The notes below the pieces were generated by a model. The model had not been told where the DNA came from. It saw nothing but the letters and a program-made list of their open reading frames with translations, and ran no database searches. A program made the translations under genes and the position numbers. 64,000 nt of DNA from Agromyces sp. SYSU T00194 (GTDB lineage Bacteria; Actinomycetota; Actinomycetes; Actinomycetales; Microbacteriaceae). Location of the stretch: contig NZ_JBEPJZ010000001.1 in NCBI RefSeq assembly GCF_040496035.1, forward strand, positions 620,001 through 684,000. Direction: 5' to 3'. Positions 46,490 to 64,000 of this stretch are shown piece after piece. Within the stretch, counting starts at the first letter, position 1; the number at the start of each line of letters is the position of its first letter.

Positions 46490-47878
46490 TCAGTAGCGCC
46501 AGCGCACGAGCTCCGCGACCGCCGCCGCGTCCAGCCCGCCGTACGCGTCCCACTCGTGCCGCCGCGACGCCACGTACGCGTCGAGCAGCGTCGTCCCGAC
46601 CACGTCGTGGAAGAACGCGCTGCCCTCGAGCAGGTCGAGTGCGGTGCCGAGGTCGGCGGGGAGGCGACGGATGCCCCGGGCCTCCCGCTCGCCCTCGGGC
46701 AGCGTGCTCGGGTCGACGTGCACGGGCTCGGGCAGCCGGGCGCCGCGCGCGATGCCGTCGAGCGCCGACGCCAGCAGCGCCGCGACCGAGAGGTACGGGT
46801 TGGCGGCGGCATCCGCGCACTTGAACTCCAGGTTCGCCTGCGCGGCCTCGCGACCGGCCTGTCCCTCGACCACCCGCACGGCGGCCTCGCGATTGGCGGG
46901 GCCCCAGCACCGGTACGCGCCCGCCCAGTGGTTCGGGCGCAGCCGCTCGAACGACAGCACGCTGCCGCCGTGCAGCGCGAGCCCCTCCTCGAGCCGGTCG
47001 AGGATGCCGGCGATCATCATGCCCGCCTCGGGCGTGAAGCCGTGCGGCCCGTCGGGGTCGGCGCAGAGCGGGCGACCCTCGTGCGCGGCGGAGAGGTGCA
47101 CGTGGCAGCCGTTCGTCGCGGCGCCCGCGACCGGCACGGGCGCGAACGAGACGAGCAGCCCGTGCTCCGCTGCGGTGCGGAGGATCACCAGGCGCGCGAG
47201 CACGGCGTCGTCGACCGCGCGCAGCGGGTCGCGCGGCGCGAGCGCGATCTCGACCTGCCCGTCGCCGAACTCCGGGTGCACCTGCTCGACGGGCACCCCG
47301 GCGGCGTCGAGCGCGGCCATCGCCTGGAGCAGCCAGGGCTCGAGGGCCAGCACCGCACGCGTCGAGTAGGCGGGCCCGTCATGGGCGAACTCGGGCACGA
47401 CGCCCGGATGCTCCAACTCGCTCGGGTTGCGCAGTTCGCCCGGCACGGCCGGATCGGCCGACTCGCGGAACACGGTGAACTCCAGCTCGAACCCGACCCG
47501 GAATGCCAGCCCGTCCTCCTCGGCCGCCCGGACCACCCGCTTCAGCAGCGAGCGCTGGCAGGTCGGATGCTCCGAGCCGTCGAGCGCGCGCAGGTCGGCC
47601 GGCGCCCAGGCGAGGCCCGTCGCCGCGTCGAGCATCGCGAGCGCCGACAGGTCGGGGATGCCCTTGAGGTCGCCCACGATCGCATCGATCTCCGGCGTGG
47701 AGTTCAGGTGGTCGTCCACCGAGAAGAGCATGCCGACGCTGTTCGAGATGCTCACGCCGGTCTCGGCGGCCGAGGCGATGCGACGCCGCGGCAGCACCTT
47801 CACCCGCGAGACGCCCGCGTTGTCGACGTGCGTGACGAGCAGCGCGTGCACGCCGTCGGTGCTGGTCGCAGCGGACAT
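46490..47878 (-). CDS. Glutamine synthetase family protein, 462 aa
   Basis: Beta-grasp N-terminus with VSISNSVGMLFSVDDHLNST, then the catalytic domain: FRVGFELEFTVFR (metal Glu), VEQVHPEFGDGQVEIALA, NGCHVHLSAAHEG (the N-G-x-H-x-H motif), SFERLRPNHWAGAYRCWGPA and ANLEFKCADAAANPYLSVAA. It lacks the GlnA adenylylation-loop Tyr motif, so it belongs with GS-like gamma-glutamylation enzymes (for example polyamine or ethanolamine ligases) rather than housekeeping GlnA. ATG 47878 has GAGGGGG upstream. Divergent from glutaminase. Confidence 0.85.
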   Translation of the reverse strand: MSAATSTDGVHALLVTHVDNAGVSRVKVLPRRRIASAAETGVSISNSVGMLFSVDDHLNSTPEIDAIVGDLKGIPDLSALAMLDAATGLAWAPADLRALDGSEHPTCQRSLLKRVVRAAEEDGLAFRVGFELEFTVFRESADPAVPGELRNPSELEHPGVVPEFAHDGPAYSTRAVLALEPWLLQAMAALDAAGVPVEQVHPEFGDGQVEIALAPRDPLRAVDDAVLARLVILRTAAEHGLLVSFAPVPVAGAATNGCHVHLSAAHEGRPLCADPDGPHGFTPEAGMMIAGILDRLEEGLALHGGSVLSFERLRPNHWAGAYRCWGPANREAAVRVVEGQAGREAAQANLEFKCADAAANPYLSVAALLASALDGIARGARLPEPVHVDPSTLPEGEREARGIRRLPADLGTALDLLEGSAFFHDVVGTTLLDAYVASRRHEWDAYGGLDAAAVAELVRWRY

Positions 47879-54025: not shown

Positions 54026-54739
54026 TCAGGCGCCCTCGGCCATCTCGGCGAGGTCCCCGACGGTCGGGTACGACCAACGGAGCAGGCCGACGGGCACGCC
54101 CGCCCGCTCCGAGACGGCCTCGTGCGTGAGGCATCCGTCGTGCTTCGCCTGCCGCGCGGCCTCCGCGATGGCGTCTCGCCGCCGCTCACGTCGGGCCGCG
54201 ATCGCGCCCGCGGTGTCGCGCACCGGCCGACGCTCCGAGGCACCCCACTCACCACGCCGCGGCCGGTCCCCCGGCTGGCCGACCCGCTCGGCCTTCGCCC
54301 AGCGCGCCGTGGCGGCGACGTCCCGGTCGAGCTGGCGGACCAGTTCCTCCGACGAGCGGAAGCGACGCTGCGGGCGCAGGTGCTTGCGCAGGGTCACGAT
54401 GATCTGCGTGCCGTAGAGGCTCTCGGAGAAGTCGAGCAGGTACGCCTCGAGCAGGCGCACCCCGCTGCGCCCGTAGTAGGTGGGCCGGTGCCCGATCGAG
54501 ACCGCCGACGCGAACCGCCGGCCGCCCTCGACCACAACGTCGGCCGCCCACACGCCGTCGCGGATGCGCAGGCCGGTCGGCAGCACGAGGTTCGCGGTCG
54601 GGAAGCCGAGGGTGCGCCCGCGCTGGTCGCCCGGCACCACGGTGCCCGCGACGACGGGCTCGTCACGGTCGAGGTCGATGATGGCGTACTGCTCGGCGAC
54701 CGGCCGCAGGCGCGGCACGGCGATCTCGGTGTCGGTCAT
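54026..54739 (-). CDS. Stand-alone riboflavin kinase fused to C-terminal TetR-type HTH, 237 aa
   Basis: Residues ~29-148 are a complete riboflavin kinase domain like the C-terminal half of RibF: GDQRGRTLGFPTANLVLP (37-54), AVSIGHRPTYYG, catalytic Glu98 in LLEAYLLDFSESLYG and the LRKHLRPQRRFRSSEELVRQ helix. There is no FAD synthetase half. Residues ~182-233 form a TetR_N-like helix-turn-helix: RRERRRDAIAEAARQA, THEAVSERAGVPVGLL, RWSYPTVGDLAEMA. Archaeal RbkR pairs an HTH with a riboflavin kinase, but with an N-terminal HTH and a CTP-dependent kinase of another family. ATG 54739 overlaps the flavin reductase stop. It probably supplies FMN for, and may regulate, the cluster. Confidence 0.85.
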   Translation of the reverse strand: MTDTEIAVPRLRPVAEQYAIIDLDRDEPVVAGTVVPGDQRGRTLGFPTANLVLPTGLRIRDGVWAADVVVEGGRRFASAVSIGHRPTYYGRSGVRLLEAYLLDFSESLYGTQIIVTLRKHLRPQRRFRSSEELVRQLDRDVAATARWAKAERVGQPGDRPRRGEWGASERRPVRDTAGAIAARRERRRDAIAEAARQAKHDGCLTHEAVSERAGVPVGLLRWSYPTVGDLAEMAEGA

Positions 54740-55251
54740 GCGTCCACGCCCCTCAGGTGTCGGTAGGTGCCCTTGTAGAACAGCAGCGGCTCGCGCGTGT
54801 GCCACTCGGCCGGGCTCATCGCGTTGACCCGCCCGATGACGATGTAGTGGTCGCCGGCCTCGTGCTCGGCCCAGAGGTCGCAGTCGAGCCACATCAGCGA
54901 GTCCGCGATGAGCGGGTTGCCCGCCTCGCTCGGCGTCCACTCGATGCCGGCCCACTTGTCGGTGCCCTTCCGGGCGAACTGGCTCGACACGGCGTCCTGG
55001 TCGTGGGCCAGCACGTTCACCGCGAACCGGCCCGCGTCGCGGATCGCCGGGTAGGTGGTCGACGTCGTCATGACGCTGAACGACACGAGCGGCGGCTCCA
55101 TCGAGACGCTGTAGAACGACTGGCAGGTGAAGCCGGTCGGCGCCCCGTCGGCCATGCCGCTGATCACGGTGATGCCGGAGGCGTAGTGGCCGAGCGTGTC
55201 GCGGAAGTCGCGCGGGTCGAAGCCCGCCTCGGGTGCGATGTCCATGGTCAT
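54736..55251 (-). CDS. Flavin reductase (HpaC/NtaB-like), 171 aa
   Basis: Flavin-reductase-like split barrel: FRDTLGHYASGITVISGMAD, PTGFTCQSFYSVSMEPPLVS, FAVNVLAHDQDAVSSQFARK, GDHYIVIGRV. These NAD(P)H:FMN reductases supply FMNH2 to two-component monooxygenases. Its stop overlaps the riboflavin kinase ATG (ATGA), so both are made together. One of two paralogues in the cluster. Confidence 0.93.
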   Translation of the reverse strand: MTMDIAPEAGFDPRDFRDTLGHYASGITVISGMADGAPTGFTCQSFYSVSMEPPLVSFSVMTTSTTYPAIRDAGRFAVNVLAHDQDAVSSQFARKGTDKWAGIEWTPSEAGNPLIADSLMWLDCDLWAEHEAGDHYIVIGRVNAMSPAEWHTREPLLFYKGTYRHLRGVDA

Positions 55252-55275: not shown

Positions 55276-55794
55276 TCAGGCGTCCGCGGCCACGGCCCGG
55301 ATCGCGCCGGCGGTCGCGGTGACGGATGCCCCCCAGCGGGCGAGCCACTCGTCGAGGGCGCCCTCCTCGGCGTAGTGCTTGTCCGAGAGGTAGAGGCCCT
55401 GCGTCGGCGTCGTGGCGCCGAGCTCGACGAGCACGGGCTTCAGGAGCAGCTCCGGCGCCATGAAGTGGGCGGGACCCGCACCGAGCATCAGCGGGATCGC
55501 CGTCACCCCGGCCATCCCGTCGCCCGTTTCGAACTGGTCGAGGAACAGCTTCAGGATGCCGCTGTACGTCGCCTTGAACGTCGGCGACGCGATCACCACC
55601 AGGTCGCTCGATTTCACGGTGGCGACCGCGTCGCCGACGGCCTGATCACCCCAGCCCATCAGGCCGGGGCCGAGCGTGACGAGGTCGATCTCGTTCCAGC
55701 GCTCGGCGAATGCCCGCGCGACCACGCGCCCGGCATCGAGGGTTCGGGAGTCGGCCTTCGGGTTGCCGGCCACGACGATCACGTTCAGGGTCAT
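55276..55794 (-). CDS. NADPH-dependent FMN reductase (MsuE/SsuE-like), 172 aa
   Basis: A flavodoxin-like reductase: VIVVAGNPKADSRTL (phosphate-binding loop), SSDLVVIASPTFKATYSGIL with the T-F-K-x-x-Y-S-G motif, LKLFLDQFETGDGMAG and PLMLGAGPAHFMAPELLLKP. The family includes MsuE and SsuE, which feed FMNH2 to sulfonate monooxygenases. ATG 55794 has AAGGAG 7 nt upstream. A third reductase in one operon suggests a high FMNH2 demand or partner specificity. Confidence 0.92.
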   Translation of the reverse strand: MTLNVIVVAGNPKADSRTLDAGRVVARAFAERWNEIDLVTLGPGLMGWGDQAVGDAVATVKSSDLVVIASPTFKATYSGILKLFLDQFETGDGMAGVTAIPLMLGAGPAHFMAPELLLKPVLVELGATTPTQGLYLSDKHYAEEGALDEWLARWGASVTATAGAIRAVAADA

Positions 55795-55820: not shown

Positions 55821-56330
55821 TCAGGCGGCGGCGTTCGTGGCGGACAGCAGCGATCGGAAGGCGCGACCGTGGTAGACGAGGGGCTCGGTGTCGTCGGTCA
55901 CCGCGAGGTCGTGCACGTCGAGCACGACGAGGTCGTGGTCGCCCGACGGGATCTCCGCCCGCACCGAGCACTCGAGCGTCAGCACCGCGCCGTCGAGCGT
56001 GAGGGCGCCGTCGGTGCCGGGCGTGAGGGCCAGTCCGGCGAAGCGGTCGCGCGAGCGCGACGCGAGCTGCATGCACGCCGCCTCGTGGCCCTGCGCGAGC
56101 ACCGAGACGCCGAGTCGGCCGGCACGGCGCAGCACCGGCCACGTGCGCGAGCCGCGCTGCGCGGAGAACAGCACCTGCGGCGGTTCGAACGAGATCCCCA
56201 CGGTGAACGAGGTCGAGACGAAGCCGACGGGCTCGCCGTCGACGACGGCGGTGATCGCCGCGATCCCCGAGGGGAAGGCGCCGAAGGCCGACTCGACCAT
56301 GGGCCGTTCGGTGATCGGGATGGTGCGCAT
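55821..56330 (-). CDS. Flavin reductase, second paralogue, 169 aa
   Basis: Same split-barrel family as the gene at 54736: VESAFGAFPSGIAAITAVVD, PVGFVSTSFTVGISFEPPQV, LGVSVLAQGHEAACMQLASR, GDHDLVVLDVHDL. ATG 56330 is preceded by GAGGGGGAACC. Low identity to the other paralogue suggests it serves a different monooxygenase of the pair. First gene after a 243-bp gap, so it may have its own promoter. Confidence 0.92.
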   Translation of the reverse strand: MRTIPITERPMVESAFGAFPSGIAAITAVVDGEPVGFVSTSFTVGISFEPPQVLFSAQRGSRTWPVLRRAGRLGVSVLAQGHEAACMQLASRSRDRFAGLALTPGTDGALTLDGAVLTLECSVRAEIPSGDHDLVVLDVHDLAVTDDTEPLVYHGRAFRSLLSATNAAA

Positions 56331-56573
56331 GTGCGGTTCCCCCTCGTGTGTCGTGCGATCGATGACGCGGTGTCGTGCGTTGACTCGATTGAACCCGGCG
56401 GCGATTTCCCCCGGGTGACTCCTGCATTGCGCCTGCTTTGCGCCGTTCCGGAAACATTCCGACGTCGGGTCAGGTGCGGCGAATAGTCGTTTGAACTGGG
56501 TTTTCTCTGATCTCAGGAACGACCCGGTGACATTCCGGACCGATTCCGCCGTCCCTCGCGACCATCCGCCGCG
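56331..56573 (-). promoter_or_regulatory. 243-bp intergenic region with ATTCCG repeats
   Basis: No reading frame is convincing here. It contains TTCCGGAA (56446-56453), ACATTCCG at 56454-56461 and again at 56530-56537, and ATTCCG at 56543-56548. It separates the MFS gene from the flavin reductase group and is a likely second promoter of the cluster and a candidate site for the GntR regulator or the kinase-HTH protein. A TCTCAGGAACG copy is at about 56511. Confidence 0.4.
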
Positions 56574-58097
56574 TCATGCGCCGTGCTCGCAGCGGGCGGC
56601 GTCGGGCTCCTCGACCTGCGACCGGAGGTGGATCGCCGGCATCGCCAGCACGGCTCCGAACGCGGGCACGACGGCGACCGCGGAGACCGCGAACAGCACG
56701 GGCATCCCGTGCAGGTACGCGTCGGCCTCGCTCGCGCCGTCGGCCATGAACGCGCCGACGACCGCCGTCAGCACGGCGCCGAGCGCGACGAGGCCCACCG
56801 TGCCGCCGAGTACGAAGAGCATCAGCACCGTCGCCCCCATCGACCCGGCCTGGTCCTGCCGTCCCGACACCTGCGAGGCGAGGATCAGGTTCTGCGTCAT
56901 CGCCCCGAGTCCGCAGGCCAGCAGCACCGTGCCCGCGATGGTGAACGGCACCGGAGCGAGGTTCACGCCCGCGAGCACGGCGTTGCCGGCCACGAGCGCG
57001 ATGCTCCCGAACAGGAGCACGGGTCGCAGCTTCGCCGTGCGGCTCATGAAGCGGCCCACCGCGAACCCGGTCACCACGGTCGCGATCGCCATCGGCACGA
57101 GCATCGTGCCCGAGATCGCGGGTTGCAGGCCCAGCCCGAACTGCAGGTACTGGCTGATGAAGACGGAGCCGCTGAACATGACGCTGCCGGCGGCGAACGC
57201 AGCGATGAAGATCGTGGACGTGCGCCGCCTGGCGAACAGGCGGATCGGCAGGACCGGGTCCGACGCCCGGAGCTCGACGATGACCAACGCGACGGTCGCG
57301 ATCAGCCCGAGGCATCCGCTCACCCCCACCAGCCATGGATGGCTCGCGGCGTCCGGGGCGGCGGAGACCGCGATGAGCAGCGCGGTGATCGCCGTGGGCA
57401 GCAGGATCATGCCGGCGAAGTCGGCGGGGCGCGGCTCGACCGGCCGCCGGGCGACCTTCAGCGTCGCGGCGATCACGATCATCGACGTGATCGCGAACGG
57501 CACGCTGAGCAGGAAGCACCAGCGCCAGCCGAGCCAGGAGGTCTGCACGATGATGCCGCCGATGACGGGCCCGGTCAGGGTCGCCGTCGTCTGGGCCGTG
57601 GCCATGAAGGCGTTCACGCGGCCGCGCTGCCGCGGAGCCACCAGCCCGGCGAGCGTCGCGGCGGTCGAGGTGAGGATGCCGCCGAGCCCGATGCCCTGCA
57701 GTGCGCGGGCCGCGATCAGGACGGGCGTGTTCGGCGCGATGCCGGCGAGCAGCGACCCGACGAGGAAGAATGCGAGGCCGGCCTGCACGACGCGCTTGGC
57801 CTCGATGCGATCGGCGAGCCGGCCCCAGATGGAGGCGGTCGCGGTGTTGCCGAGGATGGTCGCGGCGACGATCCAGGTCGACTCGCCGGGCGAGCCGTCG
57901 AGGCTCGTCAGGATCGACGGCAGGGCGGTCGCGACGATGGTCCCGCTCAGGCCGGCCACGAACTGCGCGATGACGAGACCCGCGATCGGCGCGATGACGG
58001 GGCGCAGCGACTCCTCCCGGGGACGTGCCTCGCCGACCGGGCGACGACCTCGCCTCCGCAGGCGGCGCATCCGTCCGGATGCGATGTCCCGGCTCAT
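56574..58097 (-). CDS. MFS transporter (DHA2/EmrB type), 507 aa
   Basis: Fourteen predicted helices with motif A IWGRLADRIEAKRVVQAGL, ARALQGIGLGGILTSTAATL, motif C-like TLTGPVIGGIIVQ and the family's second-half pattern. ATG 58097 overlaps the GntR stop (ATGA). Its place in the cluster suggests export of a product or toxic intermediate, or import of a substrate; neither is shown. Confidence 0.9.
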   Translation of the reverse strand: MSRDIASGRMRRLRRRGRRPVGEARPREESLRPVIAPIAGLVIAQFVAGLSGTIVATALPSILTSLDGSPGESTWIVAATILGNTATASIWGRLADRIEAKRVVQAGLAFFLVGSLLAGIAPNTPVLIAARALQGIGLGGILTSTAATLAGLVAPRQRGRVNAFMATAQTTATLTGPVIGGIIVQTSWLGWRWCFLLSVPFAITSMIVIAATLKVARRPVEPRPADFAGMILLPTAITALLIAVSAAPDAASHPWLVGVSGCLGLIATVALVIVELRASDPVLPIRLFARRRTSTIFIAAFAAGSVMFSGSVFISQYLQFGLGLQPAISGTMLVPMAIATVVTGFAVGRFMSRTAKLRPVLLFGSIALVAGNAVLAGVNLAPVPFTIAGTVLLACGLGAMTQNLILASQVSGRQDQAGSMGATVLMLFVLGGTVGLVALGAVLTAVVGAFMADGASEADAYLHGMPVLFAVSAVAVVPAFGAVLAMPAIHLRSQVEEPDAARCEHGA

Positions 58098-58870
58098 GCG
58101 TCGCCGCGTTCGACGGGTTCGTAGATGCCGTCGTGGCGGAAGTAGGTGCGCGCCGCTGCGTAGTAGACGTACTGGAGCTCGCGCGGCGTGCCCGTGTCGT
58201 CGATCAGCTGCTTCTCGCTGAGCAGGAGTGCTGCGCCCGGCGGGAGGTCGAGCATGCGGGTCGTGGCCTCGTCGCCCTGGATCGCCTCGATCGCGGTCGT
58301 GCTCCGCGACAGCGGCCGGCCGAAGTGGGCACGGAACGACGACGGCAGGTCGGCGCCGTCCTCGAGCACGAACGGCCGTCGCGGCTCGACCTCGGGCGCC
58401 CAGTAGCAGGTCTCGACGCAGTACGGCCGGCCGTTCTGGATCAGGAAGTACTCGGCCATGCGCACGGGCGAGCGCGGGTCGAGGTGCAGCTGCTGGCAGA
58501 CGACGGGGGACCCCGGGACGACGCCCTCGAACAGCACCTGCACCTCGAACCCGAGCGTGGACCCCTGCGGAGTGCCGATCTCCACGCCCTCGAACAGTTC
58601 GAGCGCGGTCGTGCCCACCCGCGGCGAGCGGGTGACGAGCCCGTCCTGGGCGAGCTGCACGAGCGCCCCGCGGACGGCCGCACGGGTGGCGTTCAGCTGG
58701 GTCCCGAGGTCGGACTCCACGAGCGGATCGCCGCGCCGCACGAGCTTGGTGCGGATGGCCGTGCGGAGCAGGGCGTACACGCGACGCGCCTGGTTCTGCT
58801 TCGTGCCGCTCGAACGCGACGCGACGGCCCGGCGATACGCGGAGCGCGCGGCGAGCGATTCGTCTTCCAT
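58094..58870 (-). CDS. GntR-family regulator with UTRA-type sensor domain, 258 aa
   Basis: HTH residues ~30-90: RRVYALLRTAIRTKLVRRGD, VESDLGTQLNATRAAVRGAL, VQLAQDGLVTRSPRVGTTA. The C-terminal half is a UTRA ligand-binding domain (QLHLDPRSPVRMAEYFLIQN, RPYCVETCYWAP, ATTRMLDLPPGAALLLSEKQ, LQYVYYAAARTYFRHDG). ATG 58870 (MEDESLAARS) has AGGAAGG 7 nt upstream, better than ATG 58876. It lies between the monooxygenases and the MFS gene and probably senses the cluster's substrate. Confidence 0.9.
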   Translation of the reverse strand: MEDESLAARSAYRRAVASRSSGTKQNQARRVYALLRTAIRTKLVRRGDPLVESDLGTQLNATRAAVRGALVQLAQDGLVTRSPRVGTTALELFEGVEIGTPQGSTLGFEVQVLFEGVVPGSPVVCQQLHLDPRSPVRMAEYFLIQNGRPYCVETCYWAPEVEPRRPFVLEDGADLPSSFRAHFGRPLSRSTTAIEAIQGDEATTRMLDLPPGAALLLSEKQLIDDTGTPRELQYVYYAAARTYFRHDGIYEPVERGDA

Positions 58871-58921
58871 CAGCATGCCTTCCTCGATTCCCTGGTTCGG
58901 TGGACGGATGTCCCGTGCGCC

Positions 58922-60250
58922 TCAGAACTCCGCGAGGTGCTCGGTGAGCGTCGACCCCGAGTACTCGGTGCGCGCGAGGCCCGCGCGCTGCAGCTCGGGA
59001 ACGAGCCCGTCGATGACCTCGTCGACGTAGCGCATGGTGAGCTGCCCGCTGCCGGAGTAGAAGAGGTAGCCGTCGCCGGTCGTCGACTCGAGCACCTCCC
59101 CCATCCGCTCGGCCACGGTCTCGGGCGCGCCCACCAGCTCCACCGACTCGGTGGTGTCGTCCGCGAGCGCCTCACGGAAGGTCTTGCCCGCGTTCATGCG
59201 CACGAACGTGTCGGTCACGCTCTGGCCGCGCGCGTCCAGCTCGGGGAGGGGCTCGTCCAGCGGGTATGCGGAGTAGTCCGTCTCGCCCCCCGACATCAGC
59301 GACAGCCGCTGCCGCACCCGCTCGTCGACCCGCGCGCGGTCCGCCTCGCGGCGACGCTGGGCGTCGGCATCCGTGTCGCCCAGCGTCGGCGAGACGAGGA
59401 AGAGGATCTTGCACTCCTCGGGATCGCGGCCCGCCGCCTCCATCTCCCGCCGCACGTCGTCGCAGTACTTCCGCATGTAGTCCTCGCCCTTCGGGAGGGC
59501 GACGATCGTCGAGGCGTACTTGGCGGCGAAGCGGATGCCCCGCGGCGACCCGCCCGCCTGGCAGATGACCGGCCGGTACTGCGGGCTCGGGATGGTGTTG
59601 AGCGGGCCGCGGCTGCGGTGGTACTGCCCGTCGTAGTCGACGGTGTGCACCTTGCTCGCCTCGATGTACCGGTCGGCCTCGCGGTCCTGGATGACCGCGT
59701 CGCGTTCCCACGACTCCCAGAGCTTCACGACCAGCTCGACGAACTCGTCGGCCATGTCGTAGCGAAGGTCGTGCGCCGACGCCGAGTCCTTCAGCGCGTC
59801 ATCGGCGATGCCGAAGTTCGCGAGCGCCTGGTTCGGCGCGCCGGTGACCACGTTCAGTCCGATGCGGCCGCGGCTCAGGTGGTCGAGCGTCGAGATCAGG
59901 CGTGCGAGCAGGTACGGCGGGTAGAAGGTCGTGTTCGCGGTCGCGATCACGCCCAGGTGCCGGGTCTCCCGGGTGATGGCCGCGGCGAGCGGCATCGGGT
60001 CGTGCTTCGGGGCACGGGACATCTGCGCGAGCTCGAGCTCGAAGTCCCCGCCGTACGTGTTCGACACGTAGCTCGAGTCCTCGAGCAGCAGGTAGTCGAG
60101 CCGGCCCTCCTCGAGGCGTCGGGCGACGTTGATGTGGAAGTCGCCCGACGCCCAGGTGTCCGCGGCCCGCCCCGACCAGGTGCGGTTCCACGACGGCGGC
60201 AGGAAGTTGGTGAACCAGCCGAGGTGCATGCGTGGTGCGGATGCGGTCAC
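58922..60250 (-). CDS. FMN-dependent monooxygenase, NtaA/SnaA/DmoA type, copy 1, 442 aa
   Basis: A class C flavin monooxygenase of the bacterial luciferase-like superfamily: LGWFTNFLPPSWNRTWSG near the N-terminus, LDYLLLEDSSYVSNTYGGDF, HLGVIATANTTFYPPYLLAR, GRIGLNVVTGAPNQALANFG, YDMADEFVELVVKLWESW, and the diagnostic QAGGSPRGIRFAAKYAST. These enzymes use FMNH2 and O2 to cleave C-N or C-S bonds (NTA, EDTA, dimethyl sulfide, dibenzothiophene sulfone). GTG 60250, 3 bp after its paralogue. Substrate unknown. Confidence 0.9.
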   Translation of the reverse strand: MTASAPRMHLGWFTNFLPPSWNRTWSGRAADTWASGDFHINVARRLEEGRLDYLLLEDSSYVSNTYGGDFELELAQMSRAPKHDPMPLAAAITRETRHLGVIATANTTFYPPYLLARLISTLDHLSRGRIGLNVVTGAPNQALANFGIADDALKDSASAHDLRYDMADEFVELVVKLWESWERDAVIQDREADRYIEASKVHTVDYDGQYHRSRGPLNTIPSPQYRPVICQAGGSPRGIRFAAKYASTIVALPKGEDYMRKYCDDVRREMEAAGRDPEECKILFLVSPTLGDTDADAQRRREADRARVDERVRQRLSLMSGGETDYSAYPLDEPLPELDARGQSVTDTFVRMNAGKTFREALADDTTESVELVGAPETVAERMGEVLESTTGDGYLFYSGSGQLTMRYVDEVIDGLVPELQRAGLARTEYSGSTLTEHLAEF

Positions 60251-60253
60251 GTG

Positions 60254-61558
60254 TCAGAACTCCATGAGGTTGTCGCGCAGGTGCGCGTGGTTGTAGGAGG
60301 TGCGGGTGCGGCCGAGCTGCTGGAGCGCGCCGACGAGCCCGTCGGTGATCTCGGTGATGCCCCGGCGCGAGCCGCCCGCCGCGATGAGGAAGCCGTCGCC
60401 GCCCACCTCGTCGAACACGCGGCTCATCTCGGCGGCCACCTTCTCGGGCGTGCCGACGAACGTCGGGTCGGTGTAGCGGATCGCCCACTTGCCGGCCGCC
60501 TCGCGCGGGGTCTTGCCGAGCTTCAGGAACTTCTCGAGCGTCGTGCGGTGGCCGTTGGTGGTGAGCTCGGGGAACGGCTTGTCCGCGTCGATCTGCGTGA
60601 AGTCGATCTCGGTGAGCGCACCCATGTGGCCGAGCGCCACGTCGACGCCGGCCTGCGTCGGGTGCAGCATGGCCTCCCAGCGCTCCTGCGCCTCCGCCTC
60701 GGTGTTGCCGAGCACGGGCGTGGTGATGAACATGACCTTGCAGCTGTCGGGGTCGCGGCCGAGGTCGATCATGCGACGGCGGATGTCGTCGCGGAACTCG
60801 CGCATGTCGTCGATGCCCTGCGCCGCGCTGATGATGGTGTCGGCGTGGGCGGCGGCGAACTGGCGACCGCGGGGCGAGCCGCCCGCCTGGCAGTACACCG
60901 GCCGGCCCTGGGGCGGGCGCGGCACGTTCAGCGGCCCGCGCACCTTGTAGTACTGGCCGACGTGGTCGATCGGGCGCACCTTGGTGTGGTCGACGTACGT
61001 GCCGGTCGCGCGGTCCATGACCACCGCGTCGGCGTCCCACGACGACCAGAGCTTCTCGACGACCTCGACGAACTCGTCAGCCATCTCGTAGCGGGTGTCG
61101 TGCTCGTAGAGCTTGTCGAGGTTGAAGTTCTGCGCGGCGCGGTCCTCGCTCGAGGTCACGATGTTCCAGCCGGCGCGCCCCTGGCTGATGTGGTCGATCG
61201 TGGCGATCGCACGGGCGAGGAGGAACGGCGGGTAGAACGAGGTGGAGGCGGTGGAGATGATGCCGATGTGCTCGGTCGCCTTGGCCAGCACCGGGGCGAT
61301 GCTGAGCGGGTCGCCCTTCGGGGCGTAGAGCGAGTGCTTGAGGTCGACCTCCATCGACCCGCCGTAGCCGTCGGCGACCATCGAGGAGTCCTCGAGCATT
61401 GCGAAGTCGAAGCCCGCCCGCTCCATGGAGCGCACCCAGTCGATGTGGTAATCGCCGTTCATCCACTCGCGGGCCTCGGACTCGAGGACCCACGGGCTGG
61501 TCCAGGCCGTCGAGCGGCTGAAGTTCATGAACCAGCCGAGGTGCATCTTCTTTACCAT
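60254..61558 (-). CDS. FMN-dependent monooxygenase, NtaA/SnaA/DmoA type, copy 2, 434 aa
   Basis: A paralogue of the preceding entry: MHLGWFMNFSRSTAWTSPW, FDFAMLEDSSMVADGYGGSM, HIGIISTASTSFYPPFLLAR, GRAGWNIVTSSEDRAAQNFN, YEMADEFVEVVEKLWSSWDA, QAGGSPRGRQFAAAHADT. Active-site stretches are shared but the middle and C-terminal parts differ, suggesting two sequential substrates or a heteromer. ATG 61558 has AGGAAG 9 nt upstream. It follows the binding protein by 84 bp. Confidence 0.9.
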   Translation of the reverse strand: MVKKMHLGWFMNFSRSTAWTSPWVLESEAREWMNGDYHIDWVRSMERAGFDFAMLEDSSMVADGYGGSMEVDLKHSLYAPKGDPLSIAPVLAKATEHIGIISTASTSFYPPFLLARAIATIDHISQGRAGWNIVTSSEDRAAQNFNLDKLYEHDTRYEMADEFVEVVEKLWSSWDADAVVMDRATGTYVDHTKVRPIDHVGQYYKVRGPLNVPRPPQGRPVYCQAGGSPRGRQFAAAHADTIISAAQGIDDMREFRDDIRRRMIDLGRDPDSCKVMFITTPVLGNTEAEAQERWEAMLHPTQAGVDVALGHMGALTEIDFTQIDADKPFPELTTNGHRTTLEKFLKLGKTPREAAGKWAIRYTDPTFVGTPEKVAAEMSRVFDEVGGDGFLIAAGGSRRGITEITDGLVGALQQLGRTRTSYNHAHLRDNLMEF

Positions 61559-61642
61559 TGGTGTTACTTCCTGTCTCTTCAGTGCGTGATGGATCGGGAG
61601 TGGACGGGTGGGCGACGTGGCAGCGTCGCCCACCCGTCGTCG

Positions 61643-63307
61643 TCACTCCCCTGGGGTGACCGCGGACCAGTCGATCGTGCTGTCGGTGCGGTACTGCGCA
61701 CCGCTCAGCTCGGAGGCGACGGCCCAGTTGGCCATCGGCCGCGCGATGAACACGTACGGCGCCTCGGTGAGCAGGATCTCCTCGGCCTCGGCCCAGGCTG
61801 CGCCGGCCTCATCGGTGGTGGGCTCGCCCGCCTCGATCGCGGCGTCGACCGCCGCGTAGAAGTCGGGGTTCTCCCAACGCGCGTAGTTGGTCGTCGCTCC
61901 CTCACCCGTGAACAGGCTGATCTCGTACGACGGCGCCTGGACGATCGCACCGTCGCGCTGCAGCACGGCCTGGTACTCCGACTCGGCACGACCCGACGAG
62001 AACGCCGCGATCGGCAGCTCCTCGAGGGTGATGTCGAATCCGGCCTCGGCGGCAGCGCTCTGGATCTGGATCGCGGCGTCGGCCACGTCGGGGGTGCCCG
62101 ACGCGTACGTCAGCGTGAACGCGACCTCGTCCAGGCCCGCCTCGTCGAGGAGCGCGAGCGCCTGCTCGGGGTCGTACTCGTAGGTCGGCAGGCCCTCGTC
62201 GGTGTAGCCCGGCAGCGTCTTGTCGAGGATGCCGTGGTCGACGGTCGCGCGCCCGGCGTAGACCGTGTCGACGATCTGCTCGTACGGCACGGCGTAGGCG
62301 AACGCCTGGCGGACGAGCTCCTCGTCGAAAGGCGCCTTGTCGGTCATGAGCGGCGCCATGAGCAGCCCGTTCGACCAGGAACCGCTCGGCACGGCCACGT
62401 TCGGGTCGTCCGACAGGTCGACCGACTCCGACGCGCGCAGCGCCATGGCGGCCTGCACCTCGCCCGTGGCGAGCGCGGTGGCACGAGTGGCCGGGTCGGC
62501 GATCGCCCGGAAGGTGATCTTCTCGATCGCCGGGGTGCCACCCCACCAGTTCGGGTTCGCGACCATCACGAACTCGGTGTCGCCCGAGACGCTGTCGACC
62601 ATGTAGGGACCGAAGCCGTAGTTCGAGTCCCAGTTCGTGTCCGACCACGCGACGGCGTACGGGTCGTCATCGGTCGCGTGCTCCTGGAGCAGCACCGAGT
62701 CGAAGATGCCGCCCGTGCTGTTCGCGAGCAGCGACAGCAGTGTGAAGCCGTAGCCCGCCTCCTCGATGGTGAAGGTCACCGTGTGGTCGTCCACCTTCTG
62801 GATCTGGGTGGCGGGGTCGGTGAGGATCGGACGGTTCACGAACTGCACCGAGCTGGTCGGGGTCGCGAACTTGCGCTCGTAGGTCCAGAGCACGTCGTCG
62901 GCGGTCAGCGGATTGCCCGCCGCGCTCACGGCGTCCTCGCGCAGGTGGAACGTGTAGACGAGGCCGTCGTCGCTGACCTCGTACGACTCGGCCAGGTCGC
63001 CCTCGAACGAGGAGACGTCCTGGAGCATCGTCACGCCGTCATCGCTCGGGATGTACGCGTTCTTCACGAGGAAGCCCTGCGACAGCGTGAGGTAGTCGTA
63101 CTTCGACGTCGCGAAGTTGCCGGAGTCGTGCGCCCAGGAGGTCGGGATGCCTGCGGCGGCGACCACGATCGAGGACATCTCCTCGCCCTCGTCGGACGCC
63201 TCGGTGCCGCCGGCGGCGCAACCGCCCAGGACGAGTGCGGTGGTCGCCGCGATCGCGGCGAGTGCGGTGCGGATCCCGCGTCGGTTGGAGCTGTGGTGTG
63301 GTTTCAC
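61643..63307 (-). CDS. ABC transporter substrate-binding lipoprotein, peptide/nickel (family 5) type, 554 aa
   Basis: Signal peptide with lipobox LGGC, then the family 5 fold: SSIVVAAAGIPTSWAHDSGN, LAESYEVSDDGLVYTFHLRE, NPLTADDVLWTYERKFATPT, GFGPYMVDSVSGDTEFVMVA, NPNWWGGTPAIEKITFRAIA, PEQALALLDEAGLDEVAFTL. GTG 63307 has AAAGGCAG upstream. Together with the permease at the window edge it makes a dipeptide-type importer. In this cluster it likely delivers the oxidase substrate, perhaps a heterocyclic or amide compound. Confidence 0.93.
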   Translation of the reverse strand: MKPHHSSNRRGIRTALAAIAATTALVLGGCAAGGTEASDEGEEMSSIVVAAAGIPTSWAHDSGNFATSKYDYLTLSQGFLVKNAYIPSDDGVTMLQDVSSFEGDLAESYEVSDDGLVYTFHLREDAVSAAGNPLTADDVLWTYERKFATPTSSVQFVNRPILTDPATQIQKVDDHTVTFTIEEAGYGFTLLSLLANSTGGIFDSVLLQEHATDDDPYAVAWSDTNWDSNYGFGPYMVDSVSGDTEFVMVANPNWWGGTPAIEKITFRAIADPATRATALATGEVQAAMALRASESVDLSDDPNVAVPSGSWSNGLLMAPLMTDKAPFDEELVRQAFAYAVPYEQIVDTVYAGRATVDHGILDKTLPGYTDEGLPTYEYDPEQALALLDEAGLDEVAFTLTYASGTPDVADAAIQIQSAAAEAGFDITLEELPIAAFSSGRAESEYQAVLQRDGAIVQAPSYEISLFTGEGATTNYARWENPDFYAAVDAAIEAGEPTTDEAGAAWAEAEEILLTEAPYVFIARPMANWAVASELSGAQYRTDSTIDWSAVTPGE

Positions 63308-63411
63308 GGTGCTGCCTTTCTCGGGTGTGCGTGATGGATTTCGGGCAGGGTGGTGCGTTCGGGGGGTCGGTGAACGGACGCCGATACGGCGGAGGGTGGG
63401 GGCGGGGCGTG

Positions 63412-64000
63412 TCAGCTGCGGAGTCGGCGCACGGCCGCCCCTCCCGCGACGGCGACCGAGACGATCGCCGCGCCCAGGAAGATGGCCGGGAAGACCGCCG
63501 ACCACCACCGGCCGGAGATGAGGTCGGATGTCCCGCGGGAGACCATCGAGCCCCACTCCGGTGTCGGCGGCGCGATGCCGACGCCGAGGAAGCCGAGCGC
63601 CGCGGCGATCGCCACCGCGACGCCGAAGACCACCGACATGTTCTCCACCGCGGGGACCGCGGCGTTCGGCAGCACGTGCCGCAGGCTCAGCCGAGCCTCG
63701 CGCATGCCGCCGATGCGTGCGGCGTCGAGGTAGGCCTCACCCCGGATCCGCAGGGTCTCCGCGCGGGTGAGGCGGGCGGGGCCCGGGATCAGCACGATGG
63801 TCAGCACGATGCTGAGCGAGAGCTCGGTGGCGCCGAACATCGCGACGATGACCATGGCGATCACGATCAGCGGCACCGCGTCGGCCAGGTCGAGCACGCG
63901 GGACATGCCGCGTGCGACCAGTCCCCGCACGCCGCCGTGCGACTCGCCCATGCCGGCGAACATCCCGATCAGGATGCCGATCACCGTGGCTCCGAGCGTG
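63412..64000 (-). CDS. ABC transporter permease, DppC/OppC type, truncated by window edge
   Basis: The frame runs off the window end (its start lies beyond 64000). Five helices are visible with the DppC EAA loop ETLRIRGEAYLDAARIGGMR then LSLRHVLPNAAVPAVENMSV and the PEWGSMVSRG motif near the C-terminus. It lies 104 bp upstream of the binding protein. Remaining importer genes (DppB, ATPases) are expected beyond the window. Confidence 0.92.
   Translation of the reverse strand, partial: TLGATVIGILIGMFAGMGESHGGVRGLVARGMSRVLDLADAVPLIVIAMVIVAMFGATELSLSIVLTIVLIPGPARLTRAETLRIRGEAYLDAARIGGMREARLSLRHVLPNAAVPAVENMSVVFGVAVAIAAALGFLGVGIAPPTPEWGSMVSRGTSDLISGRWWSAVFPAIFLGAAIVSVAVAGGAAVRRLRS

Follow-up and report, generated by a model that had tools for sequence, protein, structure and literature searches.

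The minus-strand gene at positions 54026..54739 of the window (the whole stretch of 64,000 nucleotides that was analysed, from a soil actinobacterium) encodes a protein, here called RFK-HTH, in which a stand-alone riboflavin kinase is followed by a C-terminal TetR-type helix-turn-helix (HTH). The explanation that we favour, and to which we give about even chances, is that RFK-HTH is an accessory kinase that keeps FMN available for a nitrogen-controlled monooxygenase cluster and that its tethered HTH makes a regulatory contact with nucleic acid.

Protein architecture

The protein and its parts are as follows.

54026..54739, minus strand: RFK-HTH, stand-alone riboflavin kinase with C-terminal TetR-type HTH, 237 aa
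54299..54652, minus strand: flavokinase domain, residues 30-147 (Pfam PF01687, E 1.4e-32; alignment)
54209..54277, minus strand: linker, residues 155-177 (pLDDT <50 at 160-172; length varies across 60 sequences)
54029..54208, minus strand: TetR-type HTH, residues 178-237 (profiles and predicted models)
54071..54091, minus strand: predicted recognition helix, residues 217-223 (DSSP of the model; conservation)

RFK-HTH matches the Flavokinase family PF01687 over the cut-off and contains the PTAN motif and Glu98; residues T48, N50 and E98, which represent the PTAN motif and the catalytic glutamate of flavokinases, are invariant in all 60 aligned sequences, RFK-HTH itself included. The Pfam scan found no FAD-synthetase domain in RFK-HTH, and seven RibF-type models all scored under their cut-offs and matched the kinase part only. 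A complete kinase module without FAD synthetase, as given in the preliminary description, is thus borne out. From these features we infer kinase activity, and RFK-HTH is probably an ATP-type riboflavin kinase making FMN. Since a bifunctional RibF with both FAD_syn and Flavokinase domains is encoded elsewhere in the genome (C1:2566207), RFK-HTH would be an extra, accessory kinase.

The tail had been described as a TetR-type HTH, for which an HMM search, a structure prediction of the full protein and a survey of homologues had been suggested. The first of these gave a divided answer: single-sequence scans produced no Pfam TetR_N match, either for RFK-HTH at E <=10 or for 24 homologous tails, and a search with residues 178-237 alone retrieved only RFK-HTH itself and its closest relative, whereas a profile built from the 24 tails matched TetR-type regulators among PDB sequences with a best E of 1.4e-5. 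The AlphaFold2 model (60 sequences, mean pLDDT 81.7, pTM 0.61) has helices at residues 176-200, 206-213, 217-223 and 227-236 according to DSSP, with block-mean pLDDT of 86-98 across residues 181-237, and the predicted tail fold superposes on KstR at 1.1 Å over 57 residues. Predicted models and profiles together contain helices H1-H3 and the start of H4 of a TetR-type HTH, and the assignment stood.

TetR-type HTHs are known DNA binders. The tail carries the conserved pattern T-H ... P-x-G-Y-L-R-W-x-Y-P-T, the second part of which is the family consensus around the predicted recognition helix and which presumably lies at the position where TetR proteins read DNA; the role of residues 217-223 as recognition helix would follow by analogy with these proteins. 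R183 is conserved in 59 of 60 sequences and R187 in 54 of 60, both where the long first helix begins. The lysine that is common after the recognition helix of TetR proteins is missing in RFK-HTH, as it is in the TetR-type matches 2dg8, 3t6n and 3hta. The regulators SCO7518 (2dg8), 3t6n, EbrR (3hta) and RcdA resemble the tail in HTH sequence and fold, the sequence likeness including S-H (helix 2) and VPxG (helix 3) in the alignments with 2dg8, 3t6n and 3hta. TetR proteins have an N-terminal HTH followed by a ligand and dimerisation domain, and the matched residues accordingly lie at 8-79 of the chain in the TetR matches, whereas the HTH of RFK-HTH is C-terminal, behind the enzyme; the chain ends with it, and the dimerisation/ligand domain is absent.

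Between kinase and HTH lies a linker with predicted disorder (pLDDT <50 at residues 160-172), and the segment aligned to residues 151-177 ranges in length from 14 to 42 residues in the 60 sequences. The alignment gives a median charge of +4 for the linker (range -3 to +8) and +2 for the HTH (range -2 to +6).

Distribution and selection of the fusion

In the homologue survey 7,999 candidates were scored, giving 2,966 matches, of which 120 were listed. The suggested search for the same fusion was fruitful: among the matches listed, 61 of 120 have a tail of at least 60 residues, all of which fit a loose HTH pattern, 59 have a tail of fewer than 45 residues, and none falls between 45 and 59 residues. 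The tail extension of stand-alone kinases is conserved yet overlooked by Pfam. Named carriers of the fusion include Agromyces, Rathayibacter, Cryobacterium, Kocuria, Kineococcus, Leifsonia, Nocardioides and Streptomyces. Its occurrence is patchy: by score and coverage it was found in 2 of 199 genomes of the family, and in 5 of 15 genomes of one genus, probably Rathayibacter; of 295 genomes examined in another genus two had a match, one of which lacks the HTH. Apart from that of RFK-HTH itself, none of the 53 matches from 394 genomes of the class, for each of which seven first-look candidates were scored, covers the HTH in one open frame. One genome (G116) has two different kinase-HTH fusions in two clusters (L097 9406-10059 and L098 8787-9467).

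The kinase tree, built from few columns, requires the HTH label to change 10 times, and strong branches force at least two of these changes, so that repeated gain or loss of the HTH in the kinase family is probable. A kinase copy in Microbacterium stops just before the HTH (L005 9929-10420 and L114 9094-9585, the same stretch), in an otherwise similar cluster. This copy and the 59 of 120 listed relatives without the tail indicate that the HTH is dispensable for the kinase role. As judged from substitution rates, the HTH is nonetheless conserved and under purifying selection: dN/dS for kinase, linker and HTH was 0.10, 0.12 and 0.06 in an Agromyces-type pair and, in four Rathayibacter-type pairs, 0.12, 0.29 and 0.34; 0.17, 0.36 and 0.28; 0.16, 0.00 and 0.70; and 0.36, 0.58 and 0.11. 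The HTH value, based on just 52-58 codons, is below 1 in all five pairs and exceeds that of the kinase in three of them (three of the four Rathayibacter-type pairs).

Gene neighbourhood

RFK-HTH belongs to a cluster that lies entirely on the minus strand, in the order peptide-type ABC transporter, two NtaA/DmoA-type FMN monooxygenases, GntR/UTRA regulator, MFS transporter, flavin reductase, SsuE-like FMN reductase, flavin reductase and RFK-HTH. The genes preceding it, by coordinate, are listed below.

54736..55251, minus strand: flavin reductase of the HsaB/HpaC type (Pfam Flavin_Reduct, E 1.6e-43), its end overlapping the start of RFK-HTH
55276..55794, minus strand: NADPH-dependent FMN reductase, SsuE-like (Pfam FMN_red, E 3e-17)
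55821..56330, minus strand: second flavin reductase, first gene of the presumed RFK-HTH operon (Pfam Flavin_Reduct, E 9.7e-33)
56574..58097, minus strand: MFS transporter (nearest model DHA2-type EmrB, under its cut-off)
58094..58876, minus strand: GntR/UTRA regulator of the cluster (Pfam GntR and UTRA)
58922..60250, minus strand: NtaA/DmoA-type FMN-dependent monooxygenase 2 (TIGR03860 over cut-off; top-scoring solved relative DszA 5tlc)
60254..61633, minus strand: NtaA/DmoA-type FMN-dependent monooxygenase 1 (TIGR03860 over cut-off; top-scoring solved relative DszA 5tlc)
61643..63556, minus strand: substrate-binding protein of a peptide-type (family 5) ABC transporter (Pfam SBP_bac_5)
63412..63999, minus strand: ABC transporter permease (Pfam BPD_transp_1)

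The start of the substrate-binding protein gene is uncertain and, going by the gene call, likely lies near 63307, and more transporter open reading frames follow past the end of the window (L003). A function after the model of rca, the riboflavin-catabolic cluster of Microbacterium maritypicum, was considered and dropped, since DszA and dimethyl-sulfide monooxygenase gave both monooxygenases better scores than riboflavin lyase (5w48) did.

Ten clusters were compared, namely that of the window and L004, L005, L097, L098, L107, L108, L109, L110 and L113, in stretches of 18-21 kb, at the ends of which absent genes may have been lost from view; Pfam confirmation of the content covered ten proteins from L097, L108 and L113. 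Nine of the ten clusters (all except L098) encode a flavin or FMN reductase nearby and six a luciferase-like FMN monooxygenase, while a long GntR/UTRA match occurs in seven and a 70-residue piece of one in L107. Because all ten clusters contain reductases and/or monooxygenases of these kinds, FMN supply is the safest function to assign, and local supply of FMN would be the simplest one common to the clusters.

Promoter of the RFK-HTH operon

Two features were recognised in the promoter of the operon.

56404..56441, minus strand: GlnR-type array of four 5-bp half-sites at an 11-bp period
56426..56433, minus strand: GGCGCAAT, an 8-mer common to all ten promoters compared

The 8-mer is present in all ten promoters, including that of the Microbacterium copy without HTH, and thus in all six groups of our own sorting (one Agromyces-type, one Microbacterium-type, four Rathayibacter-type), whereas the best 8-mer of 100 shuffles reached four groups. 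It was at first read as a possible operator of the HTH. As it contains one half-site of a series spaced by 11 bp, it is now taken to belong to a GlnR-type array: 5-bp half-sites with an n6 spacer fit the published GlnR box, gTnAc-n6-GaAAc and variants (PMC10704036). The array score, which was devised after the sequences had been inspected, exceeds that of shuffles in all ten promoters (p <=0.017, 300 shuffles). Outside controls above shuffles were amtB (p 0.03) and one glnA (0/300), while two of three glutamine-synthetase loci, for which about 100-200 upstream bases were scored, were not (p 0.81 and 0.61), and neither were the ABC-transporter promoter in L003 (p 0.17) and the SsuE promoter in L107 (p 0.41). 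At a looser threshold the array is unspecific, with 8 matches at period 11 as compared to 9, 2, 10 and 1 at periods 9, 10, 12 and 13. By contrast, the strict form GNAAY-n6-GTNAY-n6-GNAAY has exactly two matches in the 3.69-Mb genome and none in the reversed control: one in the RFK-HTH operon promoter (56404-56430), the other upstream of glnA (C2:202874-202900). SGGCGCAAT has 15 matches genome-wide, mostly inside genes, and one in the reversed control. The 8-mer GGCGCAAT also occurs together with GGCGGAAT upstream of the cluster's ABC-transporter ATPase gene (L003 7251-7280, minus strand). A third glutamine-synthetase-like gene lies in the window at 46541-47560 on the minus strand, about 6.5 kb from the RFK-HTH gene, and no GlnR-type array above shuffles was found upstream of it.

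The genome encodes a GlnR-like regulator (L139) that matches 8hih (E 1.1e-76) and 8hig (E 1.1e-74) over nearly its whole length; both are deposited under general names and are presumably GlnR. Residues 6-114 of L139 match 4o1h, 'Transcription regulator GlnR' (E 1.4e-25), and no NCBIfam model was over its cut-off among its best 25 matches. The strict box found only here and upstream of glnA, together with the encoded GlnR-like regulator, makes nitrogen control of the operon by a GlnR-type regulator likely, and would suggest that the cluster scavenges a nitrogen source. Such control does not need the HTH. MtrA is also encoded (L141); according to a title cited in PMC10704036, it has been reported to bind GlnR boxes in Streptomyces.

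An operator for the HTH was sought in the same ten promoters. No palindrome is common to all of them, and 5-bp dyads did no better than in shuffles. A GC-only dyad with 4-bp arms, CCGC-N8-GCGG, occurs in six of ten promoters and five of six groups (0/500 shuffles reached six promoters and 3/500 reached five groups), with one copy 14 bases before GGCGCAAT, the right arm entering GGCGCAAT, in L097, L109, L108 and L107, and copies at other promoter positions in L004 and L113. It is missing from the promoter of the window itself and from L005, L110 and L098, and might at most be a weak candidate site for some regulator.

Discussion

We propose that RFK-HTH has riboflavin kinase activity and serves specifically a catabolic gene cluster built around two-component FMN monooxygenases. 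The cluster would be turned on by nitrogen starvation acting through GlnR and probably also by the pathway's own GntR. FMNH2 for the monooxygenases would come from the pair of flavin reductases together with the FMN reductase, and RFK-HTH would lift the FMN supply above the level provided by the housekeeping RibF. The tethered HTH would bind nucleic acid, the most likely target being DNA close to the cluster or to flavin genes, and RFK-HTH would in this way also tune transcription, much as RibR of Bacillus subtilis links its flavokinase activity with control of the rib genes. We infer the supply of FMN to the neighbouring enzymes and the control by GlnR, and we guess at DNA binding by the HTH, its target and any response to flavin.

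The preliminary description had gone further and seen in the fusion a regulator that reads out riboflavin or FMN directly. Its premise, a fusion with a real HTH, stood, and the sensing regulator itself fared less well. RFK-HTH would then be a one-component transcription factor in which occupancy of the flavokinase sensor by riboflavin, FMN or ATP alters DNA binding by a TetR-type HTH that was relocated to the C-terminus and no longer has a dimerisation domain of its own. We regard this as a tentative reading, for which the support is the fusion itself: the linker, predicted to be disordered and variable in length, counts mildly against a close coupling of kinase and HTH, the dimerisation domain is missing, no palindrome common to all ten promoters was found, and with a GlnR-type box and a GntR/UTRA protein of its own the cluster could be controlled by other regulators. 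The same observations fit the doubtful alternative that the HTH is a docking or assembly module rather than a nucleic-acid binder, holding the kinase at a reductase or monooxygenase for local handover of FMN; a flexible linker, the lack of a dimerisation domain and of an operator common to all promoters, the tailless half of the listed relatives and control by GlnR and GntR would all be expected of it. A docking surface leaves less room for a conserved pattern placed where TetR proteins read DNA, for the conserved R183 and R187, and for the tendency of linker and HTH towards positive charge.

Should the HTH bind DNA as a tether or regulator without any flavin sensing, kinase turnover and DNA binding being independent, the disordered linker of variable length would be accounted for, and it would be left unexplained why the HTH is fused to a kinase rather than to another protein; this we consider unlikely. 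Still less probable is a regulator of the RibR kind, whose tail acts on the FMN riboswitch of rib genes and raises riboflavin synthesis when the cluster is on. The overall plan and a comparable setting speak for it, and the single FMN riboswitch match in the genome (C1:2290267-2290411, minus strand), far from the cluster and outside the window, would be a candidate RNA target; yet the RibR tail is dissimilar, TetR-type HTHs are known as binders of DNA, and six cluster loci other than the window gave no Rfam match at gathering score. That the HTH is a functionless relic of a chance gene fusion is very improbable: at least two changes of the HTH label on the tree and the Microbacterium copy without HTH would agree with decay, but the tail is kept in 61 of 120 listed homologues from several genera with none of intermediate length, and its dN/dS is below 1 in every pair.

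BirA and NadR, cofactor enzymes with a fused HTH and a role as transcriptional regulators, are a precedent for the logic of RFK-HTH, although they concern different cofactors and unrelated enzymes and have the HTH at the N-terminus. In archaea, RbkR combines riboflavin kinase and HTH in one chain and regulates riboflavin genes; its HTH is N-terminal and its kinase is the CTP-dependent archaeal one. RFK-HTH, in contrast, matches only the ATP-type PF01687 in Pfam-A, in line with the earlier view of RbkR as an analogue with opposite domain order and a different kinase. Bacterial RibF has the same kinase module as RFK-HTH, which differs in its C-terminal HTH and in the absence of the FAD-synthetase domain. 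The closest precedent is RibR of B. subtilis, whose operon holds NtaA-family monooxygenases. RibR consists of a monofunctional flavokinase (residues 1-120) and a C-terminal part of about 110 residues, has its gene not among the rib genes but in a transcription unit that serves the uptake and degradation of sulfur compounds, and plays an RNA-binding regulatory role at the FMN riboswitch (PMC7693651, PMC9863419). Like RFK-HTH it is a flavokinase without FAD synthetase and with a C-terminal extension, but it acts on RNA, whereas the tail of RFK-HTH is of the TetR type. A link between the two tails at the sequence level was rejected, as hhalign with eight RibR-like tails found no similarity (probability 0.1, one column), and RibR-like kinases form a branch of their own in the kinase tree (support 81). 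With dissimilar tails, the likeness is one of plan and not of descent of the tail.

The statement that no bacterial protein of this design had been described needs qualification, since RibR is a described flavokinase with a C-terminal part outside the kinase and a regulatory role; what survives is that the tails are dissimilar, and that among the papers listed in a search of the open-licence literature none described a flavokinase with a fused TetR-type HTH. RFK-HTH adds to the known flavokinases with a tail of nucleic-acid-binding type, and the TetR-type tail is what is new. If the tail binds DNA or RNA, it would represent a third way, after RibR and RbkR, of wiring a flavokinase to gene control, a use of the TetR-type HTH outside its usual architecture and a compact part that may respond to flavin. 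It could then also account for the way in which actinobacteria match FMN supply to bursts of two-component monooxygenase expression. If flavin is sensed as well, RFK-HTH would be the bacterial DNA-binding counterpart of RibR and RbkR, reached separately. A tail that did no more than dock proteins would still be a conserved extension, found in about half of the stand-alone kinases listed. The GlnR-type box gives the RFK-HTH clusters a candidate physiological setting, nitrogen scavenging.

Kinase-only relatives are found on the Arthrobacter plasmids p2MP (L099 11989-12468) and pDCT5 (L100 10010-10480), next to luciferase-like monooxygenases, a flavin reductase and a succinate-semialdehyde dehydrogenase. 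They resemble RFK-HTH in being stand-alone kinases near monooxygenases and a flavin reductase and, unlike it, comprise about 160 residues and have no HTH tail.
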